Shown: piece by piece, positions 11,462 through 24,585 of the stretch
How positions within the stretch are numbered: the first letter of the stretch is position 1
Layout: each line of letters opens with the position of its first letter
Source: Bacillota bacterium
GTDB taxonomy: Bacteria; Bacillota; Clostridia; Lachnospirales; Bianqueaceae
Reading direction: 5' to 3'
Assembly (NCBI GenBank): GCA_017441925.1
Contig: JAFRUE010000005.1
Location: 62,001-126,000, forward strand
Length of the DNA stretch: 64,000 bases
The notes under the pieces: generated by a model
Databases searched by the model: none
What the model was told of the DNA's origin: nothing
The model's input: only the letters and a program-made list of their open reading frames with translations
Translations under genes and position numbers: made by a program

Positions 11462-12247
11462 TTACAGACAGTATTCTTTGATCAGCTGCTCTGCCAGCCG
11501 GGTGTCAAAAGGCTCCGCGGCTGTCTCTCCTGAGAGGATCAGCCCTGTTCCGGGAAATATCCCGGCCCGTTCATAGTCGCGGATCTTCTTATGATTCCGG
11601 GCAATATACTTCGGATCATCAAGACGGCCAAGATGCTCCCAGTACAGCTCCTTGCGGTCGCGGATCCTCAGGATCGTAAAGTCCGGGCTGACAAAACTGT
11701 CTCTCAGCGTTAGCGGGCATTCATACTTGTACGGAATCCCGTGTCCTCTGAGCAGATTCGCGATGATCACCTCTGATTTGGAACGGACCCTCTCACCCTT
11801 TTCCGTACTATAAATCAGATGTTCTTCATGGTAATCCGATCTGACAAACGGTTTGTTAAGCCATTCGCGGGCATATTCCCCGTCCGGCTGGACGATCGGC
11901 GAAACAAAAGGCTGCTTGACCGGATGCATTCTGCCGAGCTGATCCTCCGCCTGATCCGCATCGTCATACAAGGACCGCAGTTTATGGATCTGCTTGATTT
12001 CCCGCTCTGCCGCGTCCAGGACTCTCTGGTCATATTCTTTCTGCGCAAGCGCCCAGATCAGTTTATCGTCCTTTTTCAGGTATATTCTGTCCCCGTTTGG
12101 CATGCGATGAAAGAACTGTACAGTCTTCCCGTGCGAGCTGGTAAAACCGCTGCCTTCCGGCGCTCTTTTGAGTGCCTGCTGTTTCCCGCGGATCAAATCC
12201 AGCAGAAACTGTTCCCTGGCTCTGACTGCTTCTTTCAAATCGCGCAT
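11462..12247 (-). CDS. PD-(D/E)XK nuclease-like protein A, next to a palindrome array
   Basis: A 261-residue protein. A helical basic N-terminal region contains RIYLKKDDKLIWALAQKEYD (about 54-73). The C-terminal half looks like a PD-(D/E)XK fold: RSKSE at 155-159, IPYKYE at 171-176, PDF at 188-190 and YWEHLGRLD at 202-210, then a Lys/Arg helix ending in YERAGI. E159, D189 and E204 are the candidate catalytic acids; the usual lysine of the third motif is not in its standard place. It is a clear paralogue of the protein at 47553-48293. AAGGAAG precedes the start. The five-copy CTGAA array begins 99 bases upstream of the start codon. Proteins of this type occur in multiple copies in gut Clostridia, to my knowledge without an assigned function. 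Confidence 0.7.
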   Translation of the reverse strand: MRDLKEAVRAREQFLLDLIRGKQQALKRAPEGSGFTSSHGKTVQFFHRMPNGDRIYLKKDDKLIWALAQKEYDQRVLDAAEREIKQIHKLRSLYDDADQAEDQLGRMHPVKQPFVSPIVQPDGEYAREWLNKPFVRSDYHEEHLIYSTEKGERVRSKSEVIIANLLRGHGIPYKYECPLTLRDSFVSPDFTILRIRDRKELYWEHLGRLDDPKYIARNHKKIRDYERAGIFPGTGLILSGETAAEPFDTRLAEQLIKEYCL

Positions 12248-12301
12248 ATGATACTTCCTTTTATTACTGTGTTGTTTTGTGATCTAAATAAAATATCTGG
12301 C

Positions 12302-12613
12302 AGAACTGTCCCTTTTCTTCCTTACAGAGCGAGCTTGTTTCCAGTGTACTGAAAAATCTCTCATTTTTCTCAAAAGTTCAGCCGCTGACAGGTCCGCATC
12401 AGTCGAACGGCTGAATTATCCTGAATTTTGTGGTTTTGTTCAGTACTTTCCCTCCATTTCCGGCTGAAAAAAACTCAATTTTTACCAATTATTCAGCTCT
12501 TCAGGACTCTCTGCCGTCAAACGTACTGAACAGTTCAATAAAAGAAGGCGCCCGTTCAGTACAGCGAGGCCATTCCGGCTGAATTTCCAGACATTTTCAC
12601 GAAATATTCAGCC
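12302..12613. repeat. Tandem array of five CTGAA-type palindromic elements (family 1)
   Basis: Five inverted-repeat elements span 12346-12384, 12408-12446, 12461-12498, 12523-12562 and 12576-12613. Each has left arm CTGAA and right arm TTCAG separated by 23 bases (24 in the fourth), extended outward by either GTA (GTACTGAA) or CGG (CGGCTGAA). CTGAA cores start at 12349, 12411, 12464, 12526 and 12579, so steps alternate 62, 53, 62, 53. Interiors are AT-rich and only partly alignable. The word AGAACTGTCCCT lies at 12302-12313, 32 bases before the first element. The array sits upstream of the PD-(D/E)XK protein A gene. Stems of 5-8 bp with 23-base loops are poor RNA hairpins, so protein recognition of DNA is more likely. 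Confidence 0.85.
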
Positions 12614-12835
12614 ACGGTCCATGCCGGACATCTCCATAACGAAAACAATGCCGGCAGAGAAAACTCTACCAGCATTATAAGTGTTTCGGTTCGGTTTTTC
12701 AAGGCTTTCGGGCAAATTCAAAGGTGTCAGAAAGGGACGGATACAGCCAACAAACGGCTTGTTTAAGCCATTTTCTCGTGCAGTCCAGACAGGCGTCGCA
12801 CAACCCAAACTGACAACCCGAACAAACATCACCAA
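12608..12835 (-). pseudogene. Possible remnant of a protein-A-like gene
   Basis: A reading frame of 75 residues on the minus strand carries ARENGLNKPFVG, which matches AREWLNKPFVRS at residues 126-137 of the PD-(D/E)XK protein A. At base level, around 12751-12771 against 11844-11865, ACAAACGG, TTGTT and AAGCCATT are shared with one substitution and one inserted T. The flanking parts do not align well by eye. It is most simply a decayed fragment of a second copy left beside the array, or a short duplicated piece. It is unlikely to be expressed as a protein. Confidence 0.35.
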
Positions 12836-12836
12836 C

Positions 12837-14297
12837 TCAGTCCAGTATCACGATGCGGCCTTCAACACGCGAATCAAGCCCGGCATGCGTCGAGAAATAC
12901 TCCTCGACAATGTTGTTGACGCTGGTCGCGACGATGCGCGGACGCATGTTGGCTTTGACTTCATCGATCGGCACGTTAAAGAACTCTTCAAAATTGTTAT
13001 AATGATAGTTCTGCATCGCAATGAGCAGTTTCTGGTCGTCAAGTACATCTTTGCCGCGGAACTGCAGTTTCTCGATCGTATGCGTGCTCTTGCGGTACAC
13101 GATCTGCACGCCTTTGGAGAACTCGTAGAACTCGGTATGTCCCTCCCAGGCCTCATCGCGCATGATATGCTGCACCATCCGGCGGAACTGCGCGCCGGTC
13201 ACTTTCAGCATCCACAGTACGTCATCAAAAGGCGTATTTTCCATCATGTCGCGGTATTCTACGATCGGTCCGAGCGACTTCTTGCGGATCGCTCCGGAGC
13301 CCATCATCATGATATCGAAACTGCTCTCCCACTGAAGCAGATCCGCATATAGATTGCCAAGCTCTGTTTCCTCGATCCGGGACGGATGCGTCAGCGCCCT
13401 CGCAAAAGTCGTAACCACCCGCTCGTATTTCGCATCGGTGACGTTTTTATAACGGTACAGCAGCTGCTCCATTGCTTCATCACGCGGCGCAGTATTCTCG
13501 TTTATCGGCACAAGCTTCCACTCCCAGGATTCGATGCTGTTGGTATCTGTGTCGCACACAAAATCAAACCGGCCGATCTGACCGCTTCCCGAACCGGCCT
13601 GTACGATCGGGATCCCGTTAATGACTTCCGGCTGCGTCATCATTGTATGTGAATGGCCGCCGATAATGAGATCGACCCCCCAGTCCGGATTGAGCAGCTC
13701 CGCCAGCTGCCTGTCTGCTTCAATACCGATATGTGTCAGAAGCACAACAAGATCGATGTCGACCGTCCGGTAATTATCACAGATGATCCCGACTTCTTTT
13801 GCCGCTTCTTCCGCATCGATGAAAGTCCCGATAACCTTCTCGCTCTTTGTCGAGGAAATAACCTCCTGTGTCAGGATTCCGATGACAAGGATCCTCAGTC
13901 CGTCCCTTTCAATGATTTTATACGGTTCAAAAAGCCGCGCATTGCTCAGTGTTACGAACAAATTCGCATTAATGACCGGGAAGCGCGCGCATTTCTCGAG
14001 GAAAAGCAGATGTGCGATGCCGTAATCAACCTCATGATTGCCGATCGTCATAACATCCGGCGCCAGCAGATTCATCATATCGATCGTCGAAAGGCCCAGA
14101 TACTCCGAGTCTATGACCGACCCGCGGAACATATCGCCTGCATTCGCGTATATGACATACTCCTCTTCCGCACGGACCTTTTTGACATAACCGGAAAGGC
14201 GGGATAGTCCGCCGGTCTGCACTCCGTCGACTTCCTTGGGCAGAAAATCCCCGTGCAGATCGTTCGAATGAAGGATCGTCAGTTTCCTTTTCGCCAT
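12837..14297 (-). CDS. Bifunctional metallophosphatase / 5'-nucleotidase family protein
   Basis: A 486-residue two-domain enzyme. The N-terminal calcineurin-like domain has metal motifs ILHSNDLHGDF (8-18), NAGDMFRG, TIGNHEVDYG and GGHSHT; the C-terminal 5'-nucleotidase domain covers about 290-486. It has no signal peptide, anchor or sorting motif, so it should act in the cytoplasm, unlike many homologues, hydrolysing nucleoside phosphates, cyclic nucleotides or UDP-sugars. AGGAGG precedes ATG 14297. A good promoter lies about 105 bases upstream (14403-14431). Confidence 0.9.
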   Translation of the reverse strand: MAKRKLTILHSNDLHGDFLPKEVDGVQTGGLSRLSGYVKKVRAEEEYVIYANAGDMFRGSVIDSEYLGLSTIDMMNLLAPDVMTIGNHEVDYGIAHLLFLEKCARFPVINANLFVTLSNARLFEPYKIIERDGLRILVIGILTQEVISSTKSEKVIGTFIDAEEAAKEVGIICDNYRTVDIDLVVLLTHIGIEADRQLAELLNPDWGVDLIIGGHSHTMMTQPEVINGIPIVQAGSGSGQIGRFDFVCDTDTNSIESWEWKLVPINENTAPRDEAMEQLLYRYKNVTDAKYERVVTTFARALTHPSRIEETELGNLYADLLQWESSFDIMMMGSGAIRKKSLGPIVEYRDMMENTPFDDVLWMLKVTGAQFRRMVQHIMRDEAWEGHTEFYEFSKGVQIVYRKSTHTIEKLQFRGKDVLDDQKLLIAMQNYHYNNFEEFFNVPIDEVKANMRPRIVATSVNNIVEEYFSTHAGLDSRVEGRIVILD

Positions 14298-14574: not shown

Positions 14575-14815
14575 CAGATCCCCTCCTTTATGCTATTTCA
14601 AAGGAACTATACAACCGTTTGATTTCTGTCTGACTGCATATCAGGCACATCTATAAATAAAGAAGCCCAGCAGCGATAAAAGATGAAACAAATCGCGGGG
14701 CCTGCGTATTCCCCTATCTCATGTTGACGAATGGGACTATTTTATCGTCTTGAAAATGCCGCCTCAGAAACAGCAGCAATACATCCATGACTCGACATCT
14801 GCTTGTGTTGGCTGC

Positions 14816-14852
14816 GGCGGTAAAATATCAATCAAGGCCGTTTTTTTCCGCC
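14816..14852. repeat. GGCGGTAAA-type palindromic element, copy 1 (family 3)
   Basis: A 37-base unit. Left arm GGCGGTAAA and right arm TTTTTCCGCC pair except for one position. It has the same total length as the copy at 14994-15030. It lies in the gene-free stretch 14298-15131, whose other contents are the promoter at 14403, a hairpin at 14493, one CTGAA element and a word shared with the CTGAA arrays. Confidence 0.6.
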
Positions 14853-14919
14853 AGTTTTGGGCTTCAGCAGCGGATAAAAGCCAAAATCGAAGTGATCCTA
14901 TCGTCATTCTGTGCTTGTC

Positions 14920-14957
14920 CGGCTGAATAATTCATTTAATTCATCAATTGTTCAGCT
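14920..14957. repeat. CTGAA-type palindromic element, single copy (family 1)
   Basis: CGGCTGAA at 14920-14927 and TTCAGCT at 14951-14957, with exactly 23 bases between CTGAA and TTCAG as in the arrays at 12.3 and 24.3 kb. It sits between the two GGCGGTAAA-type elements. Confidence 0.75.
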
Positions 14958-14993
14958 TTTGAACTGATTTTCAGGCCTTTTTATGGCTTTGCC

Positions 14994-15030
14994 GGCGGTA
15001 AAATTTTGAAAAATAGGCGCTTTTACCGCC
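14994..15030. repeat. GGCGGTAAA-type palindromic element, copy 2 (family 3)
   Basis: A perfect 10-bp inverted repeat, GGCGGTAAAA (14994-15003) and TTTTACCGCC (15021-15030), 37 bases in all. Its interior shares an AGGC(C/G) core with copy 1. The reverse-oriented word AGGGACAGTTC follows at 15046-15056. Confidence 0.65.
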
Positions 15031-15073
15031 AGAACCTGCCCCGATAGGGACAGTTCACACTAGGGGTAGTAGT

Positions 15074-15131: not shown

Positions 15132-18100
15132 TTACTTCCGTACAGGCTTAACGCGGCCGGAGAAACGCTTGACAACCGAGAGGACTGCCATTGCGGCCAT
15201 GCCGCCAAGAGCAATCATCAGAAGCAGCGTGCTGCTCATGCCGTCGTTGAAGCGGATTCCGGTTTCCGGAACGGTCGCCAATGTATTGTGTACGACGATC
15301 GTGTTTTCCTCTGTGCCGGCAGTCAAAGTCAGTGATTCACTGGCCTTGCCTTCGGAAGGAGTCTTCGGATTACCCGGTGCGCCATTCAGATCGAACGCTA
15401 CGGTGTAACCCTCAAGAATGCCGGATTCCTCAACTGTTACTGTACCAATCGGAAGACCGGTCAGTTCTTTCTCTCCATTGTGGCCAAGCGTGAAAGTAGA
15501 TTCACTAAATGAGTAAGCCACATTGCCGCTATATGACACGTTGAAGGAATATGTCTTGGTCATGTCGGCATAAGTACCTTCGATGCTCTTCTTGATCGTC
15601 AGCGAGACGGTCTTGACATGAACAACGAAAGCGGTATCTACAGTAGCCGCAGGAACGGTCTCACATACCTCAGGCGTGCAGGTGCGTGTTACCTTTTCTG
15701 CTGTGATCAAGGCAGCCGTAACATCGGTCCCGCCAAGCGTAATAACAGCTTTTACAGGAACATCTGTTGTTACCTGGACATAACCGCCGCTAAACGCTGT
15801 TTCCGGAGTCGGAGTCAGAGCGACTGTAACGGCCGGAACTGCGTTGTCCATGGATGACGGAGCTGCGGTAGTTCCGTTCTTCCACTCGATGCTGCTGGTA
15901 TTAACGGTAGGAAGCGTGTAAGCTTCGCCGTAATACTTGACATCATCGTCGAAGGTAAAGCTCGGTGTGTAGACATGGATCTTGAAGGCTTCAGCTGCAG
16001 TAGCGTCTACGCCTGTCAGAGATTCAACAGAGCAATTACGCTTGAAAGTAACGGAGCCTTCCGGATAAGTCGTAAGCAGATCGACTTCACCGTTCTTGAC
16101 CGCTGTAACTTCAACCGTATAATCAGTTGTCTGATCTACAGTTGTACCGGTAACACCGTCGTAGGTGTAAGTTAAAGTCGGCTTGGTCGTGTCCATGTGA
16201 ACGGCCGTGTCCAAGGTGTCGCCACACTTCCAGACGATTTCTGTCGGAGCAACATCTGCAATAGCGATTTGCGCACCTGCATAGTACACGTTCTTGTCCG
16301 CATAGGTCAACGTAGGTTTGAATACATTCAGAGAAATGCGTCCTTCCGTCACAACCGGATCCATACTGTCGTTTTTGTCTTTAACAACAGAATCGATTAT
16401 GTATTCCTTAGCAGGCAGCACCGGTGCGGAACCATCGATACTTGCCCATCCGGAATCTTCATCAGAAGGTGTTTTCCCTGCAGGGATCCTGTAGGTGCCT
16501 TTAACAACATCGCCGTCCATGATGATAAGTTCATAATTCACACCGGCGTTATTTACACCGTTGAACAAATCATTGAAGTTTACTTCGTTATTACCGACTG
16601 TAAATCTCAGGCTGGAAAAAGTCTCTGCCAGCTGATCTTCCGTCGATAAGTAGATGTTTCTTTCCGCGCTCTTCGGCTCGATGGCTTTCAGTTTAAACGG
16701 ATTTTCCGGCACCGGGAAGGTCCCGATCGGAGTATTCGCTCCTTCCGGATAGATACCAGAGTCAGCACCGTTCGTGTCGATTGTACCACCGAGGAAATTC
16801 GGGTCAGGCTCTACAGTAATCTCAATGATGAGTTTCTTACCGTGGGAGTGATCTTCCTTCTCTTCTTCTGTCACACAATTGGCGTTGAAGTCAAATCCGG
16901 AAACGCTGACGGTCTTGGGATCTTCTTCTCCCGGAACCAAATATATGCTACCGTCGGTGACTTGAGTCTTAGCACCGGTAAAGGCACTGCCGTCATAAGC
17001 CTGGGTGAAGAACTTGACTGTAGCGTCTTCTGGAATCTGGAGCTGCGGGGCAATGATATCCTTAACCACGGTTGAGGATCCAAGATCAATTGTCGGAGTC
17101 GCAATCTGTTCTGCGATGCTCTGGAAGAGCGCATCAAGGTCTTCTGCATTATCAGCTGTTAAATAATAGCCCGTAGACGCTCTCTGATTATTTGCTGTAA
17201 TAGTATATCTAATCCTCTCGGCAACTAATAAATCCAGAACAGAGCGATTTAATCCGATTTGTGTTACACTTCCATAGTTTGAAGACAAATAGTTCAGGAA
17301 ACGGTTGCCGGCAGGGATATCTGCCTGTTCAACGTCACCGAATATTAAGATTCTCCAATCTTCCCAGCGAGAATTAACACTGCCATTAGAATTAGTAAAG
17401 TGACCACTAGCTCCATATAGTTCATTCGGGTCTGCGCCACCGAATATACCAACGGTGAATATTGTAGCTCCTGCATTTTTAATATTTGCAGCTGCATTCA
17501 ATGCACCGTTTGCTACCCCAGTGCTGAAATCAGATGCTGTTGTCGGTACTCCATCTGTAAATACAACAACTACTTTCTGGCGCGTTGTATTATTACCGCT
17601 GTAATTAAGCAGATCCGTAACTAGATGCTGTGCCCGCCCCATTCCGGCAGCGACATTTGTTGCACCACTAGGACTCTGAGGCAGCCCAGCAACCGAATCA
17701 TTAAGCGTGCTATAGCCATCATTATTTACGAAAGTCCAATCGACACGTGTAGCAGCATCACTTCCAAAGGTAACAATGGATATCCGGTGATCAGCACTCT
17801 CACTATACTTTTCATGAACAGTAGAAATGAAGTTCTGGACCGCATCTTTCATTGCCTTCTGACGCGAATTGGCATAACTCGACGAATCTCCATCGAAATC
17901 ATACGCCATCGAGCCCGACTGGTCGAGAACCAATACGATATCAACAGGCGTACTGATTTCCGTAGAGGTTACTTCTCCGGTCGTATAGGAGTCCAAGGTG
18001 ATGGTGTAGGTGCCATCAGGATTCTCGACGATATTCTTGTCCAGCTCCAAACCGTCCGGCGTGTTACCGCTGCCCTTACTGCCAGCGTTCTTAGCCAGTA

Positions 18101-18920
18101 ACCGTCTTCTGGCTGAAGATTCGACTTTCACTGCCGGCATGAAGGGACCAGCATAAGTGCTGACAACAGTTTCCGGATAGGACTCAGGTTCAAGTCCTTC
18201 GATATAAGTCCGAAGTGCTCCTACCTGATCTTCCGTGAGCGTGGCAAGTGCCGTCTCGATCTCCTCATCCGACATTTCCTTCAAAGTCGCATACTGCTCC
18301 TCTACGGTCAGGTCGGCAAAAGCTTTCTCTTCAGCCTTAGGCTCCTCGTCCTTGGTCTCTTCTACCTTGGCTTCTTCTGCCTTGGGCTCTTCGTCCTTAG
18401 GCTCCTCGTCCTTGGGCTCTTCAGCCTTAGGCTCCTCGTCCTTGGGCTCTTCAGCCTTGGGCTCTTCAACCTTGGGCTCTTCAACCTTGGGCTCTTCGGC
18501 CTTGGGCTCTTCGGCCTTAGGCCCTTCGGCCTTAGGCTCCTCGTCCTCGGGTTCTTCGTCCTTGGGCTCTTCGTCCTTGGATTCTTCGTCCTTGGGCTCT
18601 TCGTCCTTGGGTTCTTCGTCCTTGGGCTCTTCGTCCTTGGGTTCTTCGTCCTCGGTTTCTTCGTCCTTGGCCTCTTCGTCCTTGGCTTCTTCGTCCTTGG
18701 TCTCTTCATCCTCGGGCTCTACAGCCTTTGGCTCTTCAACCACGAGTTCTTCGGCCTTGCTCTCATCCTTGGACTCTTCTACAAGCGTCTGGCCGCTTTC
18801 TGCAGGCGCGCCGCTCTCGTCTTCAGCGGCAACTGCGGGAACAACAGCACTCATCATTATCAGTGCTGAAAGAAGGATGGCAAAAAGACGCCGCATGGAT
18901 TTATTGATCATTTTACGCAT
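15132..18920 (-). CDS. Pilus tip adhesin with vWA domain and cell-wall sorting signal
   Basis: A 1262-residue surface protein. A signal peptide (about 1-35) is followed by an acidic tract of EEPK(D/A) five-residue repeats (about 60-205), a vWA domain (about 325-560) with the MIDAS motif DQSGSM and VVVFTDG, several beta-sandwich segments, and a C-terminal SLTIKKSIEGTYADMTKTYS pilin-like module. The sorting signal is VPETG, a hydrophobic helix and a basic tail. ATG 18920 overlaps the stop of the upstream pilin by eight bases and has GAGG upstream; an in-frame GTG three codons earlier is less likely. As last gene of the operon with vWA and sorting signal it is the expected tip adhesin. The vWA part (about 17150-17950) is clearly more AT-rich than its flanks. 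Confidence 0.9.
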   Translation of the reverse strand: MRKMINKSMRRLFAILLSALIMMSAVVPAVAAEDESGAPAESGQTLVEESKDESKAEELVVEEPKAVEPEDEETKDEEAKDEEAKDEETEDEEPKDEEPKDEEPKDEEPKDEESKDEEPKDEEPEDEEPKAEGPKAEEPKAEEPKVEEPKVEEPKAEEPKDEEPKAEEPKDEEPKDEEPKAEEAKVEETKDEEPKAEEKAFADLTVEEQYATLKEMSDEEIETALATLTEDQVGALRTYIEGLEPESYPETVVSTYAGPFMPAVKVESSARRRLLAKNAGSKGSGNTPDGLELDKNIVENPDGTYTITLDSYTTGEVTSTEISTPVDIVLVLDQSGSMAYDFDGDSSSYANSRQKAMKDAVQNFISTVHEKYSESADHRISIVTFGSDAATRVDWTFVNNDGYSTLNDSVAGLPQSPSGATNVAAGMGRAQHLVTDLLNYSGNNTTRQKVVVVFTDGVPTTASDFSTGVANGALNAAANIKNAGATIFTVGIFGGADPNELYGASGHFTNSNGSVNSRWEDWRILIFGDVEQADIPAGNRFLNYLSSNYGSVTQIGLNRSVLDLLVAERIRYTITANNQRASTGYYLTADNAEDLDALFQSIAEQIATPTIDLGSSTVVKDIIAPQLQIPEDATVKFFTQAYDGSAFTGAKTQVTDGSIYLVPGEEDPKTVSVSGFDFNANCVTEEEKEDHSHGKKLIIEITVEPDPNFLGGTIDTNGADSGIYPEGANTPIGTFPVPENPFKLKAIEPKSAERNIYLSTEDQLAETFSSLRFTVGNNEVNFNDLFNGVNNAGVNYELIIMDGDVVKGTYRIPAGKTPSDEDSGWASIDGSAPVLPAKEYIIDSVVKDKNDSMDPVVTEGRISLNVFKPTLTYADKNVYYAGAQIAIADVAPTEIVWKCGDTLDTAVHMDTTKPTLTYTYDGVTGTTVDQTTDYTVEVTAVKNGEVDLLTTYPEGSVTFKRNCSVESLTGVDATAAEAFKIHVYTPSFTFDDDVKYYGEAYTLPTVNTSSIEWKNGTTAAPSSMDNAVPAVTVALTPTPETAFSGGYVQVTTDVPVKAVITLGGTDVTAALITAEKVTRTCTPEVCETVPAATVDTAFVVHVKTVSLTIKKSIEGTYADMTKTYSFNVSYSGNVAYSFSESTFTLGHNGEKELTGLPIGTVTVEESGILEGYTVAFDLNGAPGNPKTPSEGKASESLTLTAGTEENTIVVHNTLATVPETGIRFNDGMSSTLLLMIALGGMAAMAVLSVVKRFSGRVKPVRK
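18310..18730 (-). repeat. Tandem 15-base repeats coding for EEPKD/EEPKA units
   Basis: About 27 imperfect 15-base units inside the adhesin gene (plus-strand reading close to TCGTCCTTGGGCTCT). They encode Asp/Glu/Pro/Lys pentapeptides and likely form an extended acidic stalk between signal peptide and vWA domain. Low divergence between units suggests length change by slippage or recombination. Confidence 0.85.
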
Positions 18921-19755
18921 TGTCCTCACGTCCTTTCTTCGATTTCAGCATTACTGACATTAATGCGAGAAGTGCTGCAAAGGATACGAGCATGATCATG
19001 CTGTAGAACGGGAGATTGCTCGTATCACCGGTATCCGGTATAGCCGGCTTGGGTTTGGAAGATTCCTCAGGTTTAGAAGACTCTTCCGGTTTAGAGGATT
19101 CCTCAGGCTTAGAAGACTCTTCCGGTTTGGAGGATTCTTCTGTCTCAGAAGACTCTTCAGGCTCAGATGATTCTTCAGGCTCAGAAGACTCTTCCGGTTC
19201 TTCGTAGGAATAGGTCGGATCAAGCTCGATCTCGGTCGGCTTGAGGCTGTCGTCCGTCTCGGCGGTCAGCATTGTCAGCTTCAGCCCGCCTTCGGGATCG
19301 TTCGCGATGTAGCAGTAGAATTTGAATGTGCGGGCTTCGAAATAATAGCGGTCCGCGTTCTCTTTCTGTTCGTCTGTCGCGATGTCGCCTTTCAGTTCGT
19401 AGGCATAGATCCCCGGCTTTGTAAATGTGAAAGTCAGTTTCCCGTCCTGAACGAACCGTGTGCCTTCCTCAACGCTTTCACCCGTTCCGCCTACGCCTTT
19501 GAAGGTGAAGACGCCTTTTGCGTCCGCTTCCGCGGGAAGAGGCGCTTCGTCCTCAGCTGTCACGATATAGTGGAAAACGTCGTCCACTGTCGTGTCCGTT
19601 GTCGTGTAGACATGCTTAAACGGAATGGTTACTGTTAGAGGTTCGTACTCACTGCCTGCAGCGTCGGCCGGAATCCCGGTCGATACAAAGCAGATCAGCA
19701 GCACCAGTGCTAAAAGCATGCCCAACACCTTTGCGTGCTTTTGTGTTTTTTTCAT
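18913..19755 (-). CDS. Minor (basal) pilin with Spy0128-like domain
   Basis: A 280-residue exported pilin. It has a signal peptide (1-32), one Spy0128/FctA-type domain (about 37-175) with TFTFTKPGIYAYELKGD, a tract of EESSEP/EESSKP repeats (about 183-232), then the sorting signal IPDTG (about 239-243), a hydrophobic helix and a basic tail. The Ser/Glu/Pro spacer would carry the domain through the wall, as expected for an anchor pilin of the FctB kind. It is 3 bases downstream of the sortase gene and overlaps the adhesin start by eight bases, so translation is coupled. Confidence 0.88.
   Translation of the reverse strand: MKKTQKHAKVLGMLLALVLLICFVSTGIPADAAGSEYEPLTVTIPFKHVYTTTDTTVDDVFHYIVTAEDEAPLPAEADAKGVFTFKGVGGTGESVEEGTRFVQDGKLTFTFTKPGIYAYELKGDIATDEQKENADRYYFEARTFKFYCYIANDPEGGLKLTMLTAETDDSLKPTEIELDPTYSYEEPEESSEPEESSEPEESSETEESSKPEESSKPEESSKPEESSKPEESSKPKPAIPDTGDTSNLPFYSMIMLVSFAALLALMSVMLKSKKGREDNA
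19055..19200 (-). repeat. 30-base tandem repeats coding for EESSKP/EESSEP units in the minor pilin
   Basis: Alternating 15-base units (plus-strand reading near GATTCCTCAGGTTTA and GACTCTTCCGGTTTA) make a Ser/Glu/Pro spacer of about 50 residues before the sorting signal. Similar EESSK units occur in the lipoprotein at 25916-27706, so the spacer type is shared by unrelated surface proteins. Confidence 0.8.
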
Positions 19756-24190: not shown

Positions 24191-24482
24191 AGAACTGTCC
24201 CTATTCGGCCGCAGAAATGGCGGTTTTCTGTTCGGCAGTTTCTTTTCCCTCATTTTGGGTCCCTGAGGGAAGGCTCCGGCTGAACAATTCAGCAAAACTT
24301 CAAATAATACAGTACAAAGTTGCTTCTGTGTACTGAACAGATTAAAAAAATCTCCTAAAATTCAGCCGGCAGGCCTCTTTTCGGCTGAAAAATCGTGCAG
24401 AAATGCAGATTTTTCAGTATTGTTCAGCACGGAGAAGGCGCCAAATACTGAACAATTTTGAAAAACCACGAAAAATTCAGCC
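24191..24482. repeat. Tandem array of four CTGAA-type palindromic elements (family 1)
   Basis: Elements lie at 24277-24315, 24330-24368, 24382-24420 and 24445-24482. Each has CTGAA and TTCAG (TACAG in the first) separated by exactly 23 bases, with outer extensions CGG, GTA or ATA. CTGAA cores begin at 24280, 24333, 24385 and 24448, giving steps 53, 52, 63, the same two spacings as the array at 12.3 kb. AGAACTGTCCCT at 24191-24202 precedes it in the same orientation as at 12.3 kb. The array sits between two convergent gene ends, which argues against a promoter role. Confidence 0.85.
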
Positions 24483-24585
24483 AGACCCCATCGGCGACTG
24501 AACCAAATGAGCATAAGGCAGCCGGATTCCACGCTGTATCTTCGTCTGGCACGCCTCCATCCGGCGCAACGCACACAAAGACAGT

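Follow-up and report, generated by a model that had tools for sequence, protein, structure and literature searches.

The five palindromic units at 12349-12611 of the window, by which we mean the whole 64,000-bp stretch analysed here (C1:62001-126000 of a 2.7-Mb, 16-contig genome, 97.9% complete), form one array of a repeat system whose units are spaced by whole turns of the DNA helix. This whole-turn spacing, and not a strict alternation of two step lengths, is the rule that holds throughout. On the evidence below, we would give roughly even chances to the reading that the array belongs, as one of many copies, to a scattered BIME-like element acting as double-stranded DNA, a phased platform at convergent gene ends with DNA gyrase as its likeliest partner.

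Each unit of the window array has the form CTGAA-N23/24-TTCAG and is 33-34 bp long, and neither the units nor the gaps are assigned a strand. Unit 1 (12349..12381; GTA-CTGAA-N23-TTCAG-CCG) has a central T-tract and is followed by a 29-bp gap (12382..12410) in which the facing arms, TTCAGCCG and CGGCTGAA, are complementary. Unit 2 (12411..12443; CGG-CTGAA-N23-TTCAG-TAC) and unit 3 (12464..12496; CGG-CTGAA-N23-TTCAG-CTC) are separated by 20 bp (12444..12463), and a further 29-bp gap (12497..12525) leads to unit 4 (12526..12559), which is 34 bp long and contains AAGGCGCC. A 19-bp gap (12560..12578) precedes unit 5 (12579..12611; CGG-CTGAA-N23-TTCAG-CCA). The arm types thus run GTA/CCG, CGG/TAC, CGG/CTC, GTA/TAC and CGG/CCA. 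The CTGAA starts given in the initial annotation (12349, 12411, 12464, 12526 and 12579) are exact, and its steps (62, 53, 62, 53) and gaps (29, 20, 29, 19) are borne out; the unit lengths are 33, 33, 33, 34 and 33. Within the window, CTGAA-N18..30-TTCAG is matched ten times against 1.1 expected, a number reached by none of 100 shuffles. Another array on the same contig (C1:43310-43572, L021) has steps and an order of arm types identical to those of the window array. The fourth unit is 34 bp long in both of these arrays and in the array of the sister species (L142), and AAGGCGCC is common to the window array and L142; the window array is a member of a five-unit class with a 34-bp, AAGGCGCC-bearing fourth unit.

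The array lies between two genes of the same direction. On its left, a 261-residue ORF without a Pfam match (11462..12247, minus strand) has its start codon toward the array, 102 bp away, and a AACTGTCCC tag is found at 12304..12312 (plus strand). On its right, a metallophosphoesterase/5'-nucleotidase gene (12837..14297, minus strand) has its stop toward the array at a distance of 226 bp, and the hairpin with a T-rich tail between the two (12645..12678, minus strand) is, from its sequence, a probable intrinsic terminator of this gene. A promoter-like TTGAAA-17-TATAAT box (11/12; 12702-12674, minus strand), directed through the array to the 261-residue ORF, overlaps the terminator-like hairpin; both are retained in the sister species (G002, start of L126), where the stem changes are paired, as judged by eye. 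Further along the window, a large surface-type protein (15132-18929, minus strand) includes a Glu/Lys/Pro-rich stretch with 27 copies of a 15-bp repeat (18327-18737).

Across the genome, CTGAA-N22-24-TTCAG occurs 58 times, compared with 4 matches for a reversed-pattern control, and a sequence model derived from 43 units recovers about 50 CTGAA units at about 20 loci, which are extragenic by gene calls. The ten arrays that were read fully share one unit anatomy, CTGAA-N23-TTCAG with a central A4/T4 tract and outer arms of the GTA or the CCGG kind, and 34 of the 47 tabulated units have one arm of each. In the canonical four-unit arrays, neighbouring units alternate in orientation, so that each gap is bordered by two arms of one kind. 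Between two GTA arms the gap is mostly 20 bp, with a variant of 30, and between two CCGG arms it is 29 bp, with a variant of 19. A second array in the window (24280..24480, no strand assigned) has four units at steps of 53, 52 and 63. The same genome holds a second arm family, AAGCAGAAAA-N19-TTTTCTGCTT (CAGAA-N23-TTCTG; 47 matches against 3 in the control), arranged at steps such as 52, 52, 52, 62 and 52, 62, 52, 62, 52, and mixed GGCGGTAAA elements of a third kind share their architecture with both families. Inside one GGCGGTAAA-type element (about 14802-15056), a lone CTGAA unit (14923..14955, no strand assigned) has its centre 73 bp, or seven turns, from the adjoining GGCGGTAAA unit.

This last stretch of the window also corresponds to a dispersed element bounded by GGCGGTAAAA...TTTTACCGCC units, with ends that resemble CTTGTGTTGGTTGCGGCGG and with many partial copies in the genome (G000). 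The element often holds a single CTGAA or CAGAA unit, and its spacings are 42-43, 52-53, 63, 73, 105 and 124-126 bp. At C9:95100-95400 (L222, from 15101 onward), strong 10.45-bp A-tract periodicity accompanies TCAGCTTTT/AAAGCTGA-like arms, possibly a further array family. A role as macrodomain marker with a bias toward origin or terminus was rejected: the dnaA contig C9 has no CTGAA arrays, yet it does have CAGAA arrays.

The alternation of 62 and 53 that had been proposed for the window array is found there and in L021, but it fails as a general rule, as other arrays have steps of 53, 52, 63, of 51, 53, 62, 53 or of 52, 52, 52, 62. The initial annotation had reasoned that random steps elsewhere would make the alternation accidental; such randomness was not observed, and the steps fall on whole turns instead. 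Its further idea, that the difference between the two steps is close to one DNA turn and could let all units present the same face, is strongly supported. The spacing check that it had suggested, run over 60 distances between unit centres of all kinds, gave a vector length R of 0.91 at 10.5 bp with a phase near zero; the distances are 42-43, 51-53, 62-63.5, 72-73, 105, 115-116 and 124-126 bp, with one exception at 39. The nominal Rayleigh P of about 1e-22 is overstated, since copies descend from one another and the distances are non-independent. More weight than on this P value rests on the phase common to several step classes, to pairs of unlike units and to a compensating pair of changes. 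The spacings cover 4, 5, 6, 7, 10, 11 and 12 turns in several arm families, unlike unit pairs included, and the homologous arrays C1:86277 and C2:44363, in which gaps of 19 and 30 replace the canonical 29 and 20, stay phased through this +10/-10 pair, so that phase is kept through 10-bp changes.

The A-tracts follow the same period. For AAA/TTT tracts in 20 arrays, the power peaks at 10.5 bp (z=39 against dinucleotide shuffles), with values of 6-28 per array (median 14) and a median of 1.4 in control intergenic gaps, of which the three top-scoring are arrays missing from the exclusion list. In the averaged profile, peaks stand near 0, 10, 20, 31, 42 and 52 bp on either side of the unit centre and continue, weaker than within units, into the gaps. 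Part of this power is a consequence of repeating units at integer turns, but within units and within gaps, too, tracts follow one another at about one turn.

A five-unit array of the sister species, at a contig end, has steps of 63, 53, 63 and 53; its fourth unit is 34 bp long and includes AAGGCGCC, and all ten half-sites of the array read CAGAA/TTCTG in place of CTGAA/TTCAG: the layout is retained despite a wholesale change of arms. In another genus of the same family (G007), TATACGCA...TGCGTATA units stand at steps of 72, 73, 84, 73 and 84, equal to seven and eight turns, with strong A-tract power at 10.45 bp. In L079, a Bacillota MAG from goat gut, CTGAA units of 33 bp are arranged at steps of 52, 63 and 52, with one more, degenerate unit. 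Among 295 genomes of the order, the unit model detected nothing of the CTGAA family other than single weak matches, which, taken with the recurring geometry, implies that the arm sequence is lineage-specific. No recognised array was found in the 385 kb scanned of the congener G001, where 10.45-bp windows are in modest excess, and most of the 57 matches from a pattern scan of genome contigs look like chance single pairs. The rumen Clostridiales MAGs RGIG8239, RGIG8001 and RGIG8127 have real arrays of another type, made of nested TGTCTGAA-like units with a 62-bp step. Many such arrays with a constant 62-bp step occur in RGIG8239 (L034, L037, L039, L051, L059, L062, L064, L076, L081, L085), the nested palindrome being TGTCTGAA..GCGTCTGAAT-N-ATTCAGACGC..TTCAGACA, and a rabbit-gut Clostridia MAG (L075, 4305-4900) has CTGAAAAGTTGC...CAACTTTTTCAG hairpin units in 63-bp tandem repeats. 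Several arrays of the three RGIG genomes, L079 and L075 have weak A-tract periodicity, or one that tandem identity confounds, and for this reason the group is not used as proof.

Gene context was counted from a codon-usage gene call, with gaps of at least 150 bp for comparison. Convergent gene ends flank 16 of the 25 arrays and 34 of the 151 other gaps (Fisher P=6e-5), and divergent ones a single array of the 25; the window array, both of whose neighbours are on the minus strand, is an exception to the convergent bias. Inverted half-sites and phased A-tracts at whole turns would create one continuous face or a pre-bent path over roughly 200-300 bp, suited to a protein that wraps DNA or forms polymers along it. 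Because the arrays sit between convergent gene ends, the element may handle transcription-driven supercoiling. The platform reading is favoured since it explains spacing, A-tract ladder and location together; protein binding, gyrase as the partner and an effect on supercoiling are what we infer from these.

By analogy with BIME-2, of which the element would be a functional analogue, gyrase is the best single candidate; second would be an architectural protein whose DNA-binding domain is specific for the arms. The sites of gyrase are degenerate, with no requirement for conserved palindromic arms, and gyrase alone therefore fails to explain CTGAA or the switch between species; the arms and this switch suggest a sequence-specific partner in addition. 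The motif of Escherichia coli gyrase has arms with a period of 10.75 bp, and gyrase cleavage is enriched at BIME-2 elements (PMC6379681); a GC preference with a period of 10-11 bp was present in all gyrases examined (PMC12324340). The gyrase signal at BIME-2 rises, and does not fall, upon transcription block (PMC6379681), which weakens the link to transcription-driven supercoiling for the analogue. Further against the platform reading, the window copy lies between same-direction genes, and long inverted pairing, together with the few paired arm changes in L029, L115 and L023, also fits a single-strand fold.

Such a fold would be expected if the arrays were transcribed and worked as RNA, as hairpins that protect mRNA 3' ends, attenuate or terminate, and to this we attach a small probability. 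The arrays are found at gene 3' ends, their predicted folding is strong (z -3.6 to -9.4), the arms facing across gaps are complementary and the same three loci have paired changes, but an RNA has no need of 10.5-bp phasing of units or A-tracts. Moreover, pairing between the two outer arms of a unit falls short of expectation, the inner dyad positions lack covariation, by which the unit as a simple hairpin was rejected, and several arrays lie past the intrinsic terminators of flanking genes, although wrong-strand controls also score and this count is noisy; Rfam gave no match up to E=1 for 12000-13000. RNA and cruciform readings account for the inverted arms and leave the phase unexplained. Palindromic half-sites, helical phasing and the position of the window copy 102 bp upstream of a start codon would suit an operator array through which a sequence-specific transcription factor controls its neighbours; with a single array between divergent genes, most at convergent ends and unrelated genes as the neighbours seen, this is quite improbable. 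Intrinsically curved DNA formed by an A-tract cluster could also pin plectoneme ends or aid compaction passively, with no dedicated protein. The strong 10.5-bp ladder across units and gaps agrees with it, and two studies describe A-tract periodicity in prokaryotic genomes (PMC3940949, PMC3431218); as it leaves the conserved inverted arms and the coordinated switch between species unexplained, we rate it as very improbable indeed.

The arrays might instead belong to a miniature mobile element, with subterminal arrays as the sites of an absent or unrecognised transposase, phasing for the assembly of that enzyme and convergent gene ends as safe landing places; we regard this as rather unlikely. 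Its copies are dispersed, and the arm families vary between species, as expected for element lineages. A 329-bp block common to two arrays (24194..24522) recurs at C2:44321-44649 with 84% identity and a left edge exactly at ACTGTCCC, and near arrays AACTGTCCC stands on the left in 6 of 6 cases and GGGACAGTT on the right in 11 of 12, in inverted orientation. These tags and the block edge point, at the level of sequence, to dispersal as a defined element. Across about 0.99 Mb of own sequence, the dispersed 9-bp word AACTGTCCC/GGGACAGTT has 80 sites; 20 of them are at most 400 bp from arrays and nearly all inverted there, and the word may mark the ends of some larger system of repeats. Against mobility, only some arrays are tagged, the flanking ORFs that were read include no transposase gene adjoining the arrays, the arrays occupy most of the element, which is unusual for a MITE, and phasing holds in other families and another genus too. 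The contig of the sister species breaks near the array edge, and neither a clean empty site nor a target-site duplication was established.

For decades, opinion on REP and BIME repeats has been divided between mere passengers and elements of DNA topology. The phased arrays add a BIME-like element for which no RAYT was detected and whose constant is its spacing, not its sequence. From one sister species to the other, and from family to family, the arms are replaced wholesale, yet units and A-tracts remain at whole helical turns. This invariance makes the double-stranded, topological hypothesis directly testable, and palindromes at integer turns with an A-tract ladder provide a search rule for other genomes that is independent of arm sequence. 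More tentatively, the arrays may represent an undescribed class of phased palindromic arrays in several gut and rumen Bacillota genera, with lineage-specific arms, which would serve as docking platforms for an architectural protein co-evolving with the arms and would insulate convergent genes. In the open-access literature, searches met no account of palindromic arrays with helical phasing in Bacillota, which is weak evidence of absence. A CRISPR array was rejected, as no direct repeats were detected, unit cores vary and arms are inverted, and so was a plasmid-borne copy, for which there was no match.

Among known systems, the small MITEs of Bacillota (RUP-like) are likewise dispersed and devoid of evident coding capacity, and their inverted end tags have a possible counterpart in the words beside some of the arrays, but the interior of the arrays consists of phased palindromic units and target duplications are not demonstrated. 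Phased A-tract clusters and curved prokaryotic DNA share A/T-tracts at the helical period, whereas the arrays are a repeated element with conserved inverted arms. Like the motif of E. coli gyrase (about 130 bp), compared here by sequence periodicity only, they are symmetric and helically periodic in A/T and G/C over more than 100 bp; unlike it, they are multi-unit, with conserved palindromic arms. With REPINs, the REP doublets mobilised by RAYT, they share inverted unit pairs that form a long hairpin (e.g., L032, L029), but they have four to six units per array. No RAYT was found in the genome, whose sole Y1_Tnp (C10:7122-7478) is a canonical IS200/IS605-type TnpA (NF033573 IS200, 150 bits; RAYT model 38.9 bits, cut-off 80) with no CTGAA units in the 3.4-kb locus around it, and a RAYT-driven REP was accordingly rejected. 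In REPs, the palindrome has at its foot an unpaired tag, GTAG or CGTC, by which they are defined (PMC3733652); this tag is absent from the alignment of 43 units, where the outer arms are of GTAC or CCGG types. The likeness to mosaic BIMEs that the initial annotation had drawn holds for organisation, as in BIME and BIME-2 (asymmetric palindromic units, alternating orientation, two linker lengths, dispersed extragenic copies at gene 3' ends), and not for membership, given the missing tag and RAYT, the short arms (5-10 bp) and the long variable core (17-23 bp); the central A/T-tract of this core and the locking of units and A-tracts to whole turns are further differences. We therefore describe the element as BIME-like in build, and probably also in function, rather than as a member of the REP/BIME family.
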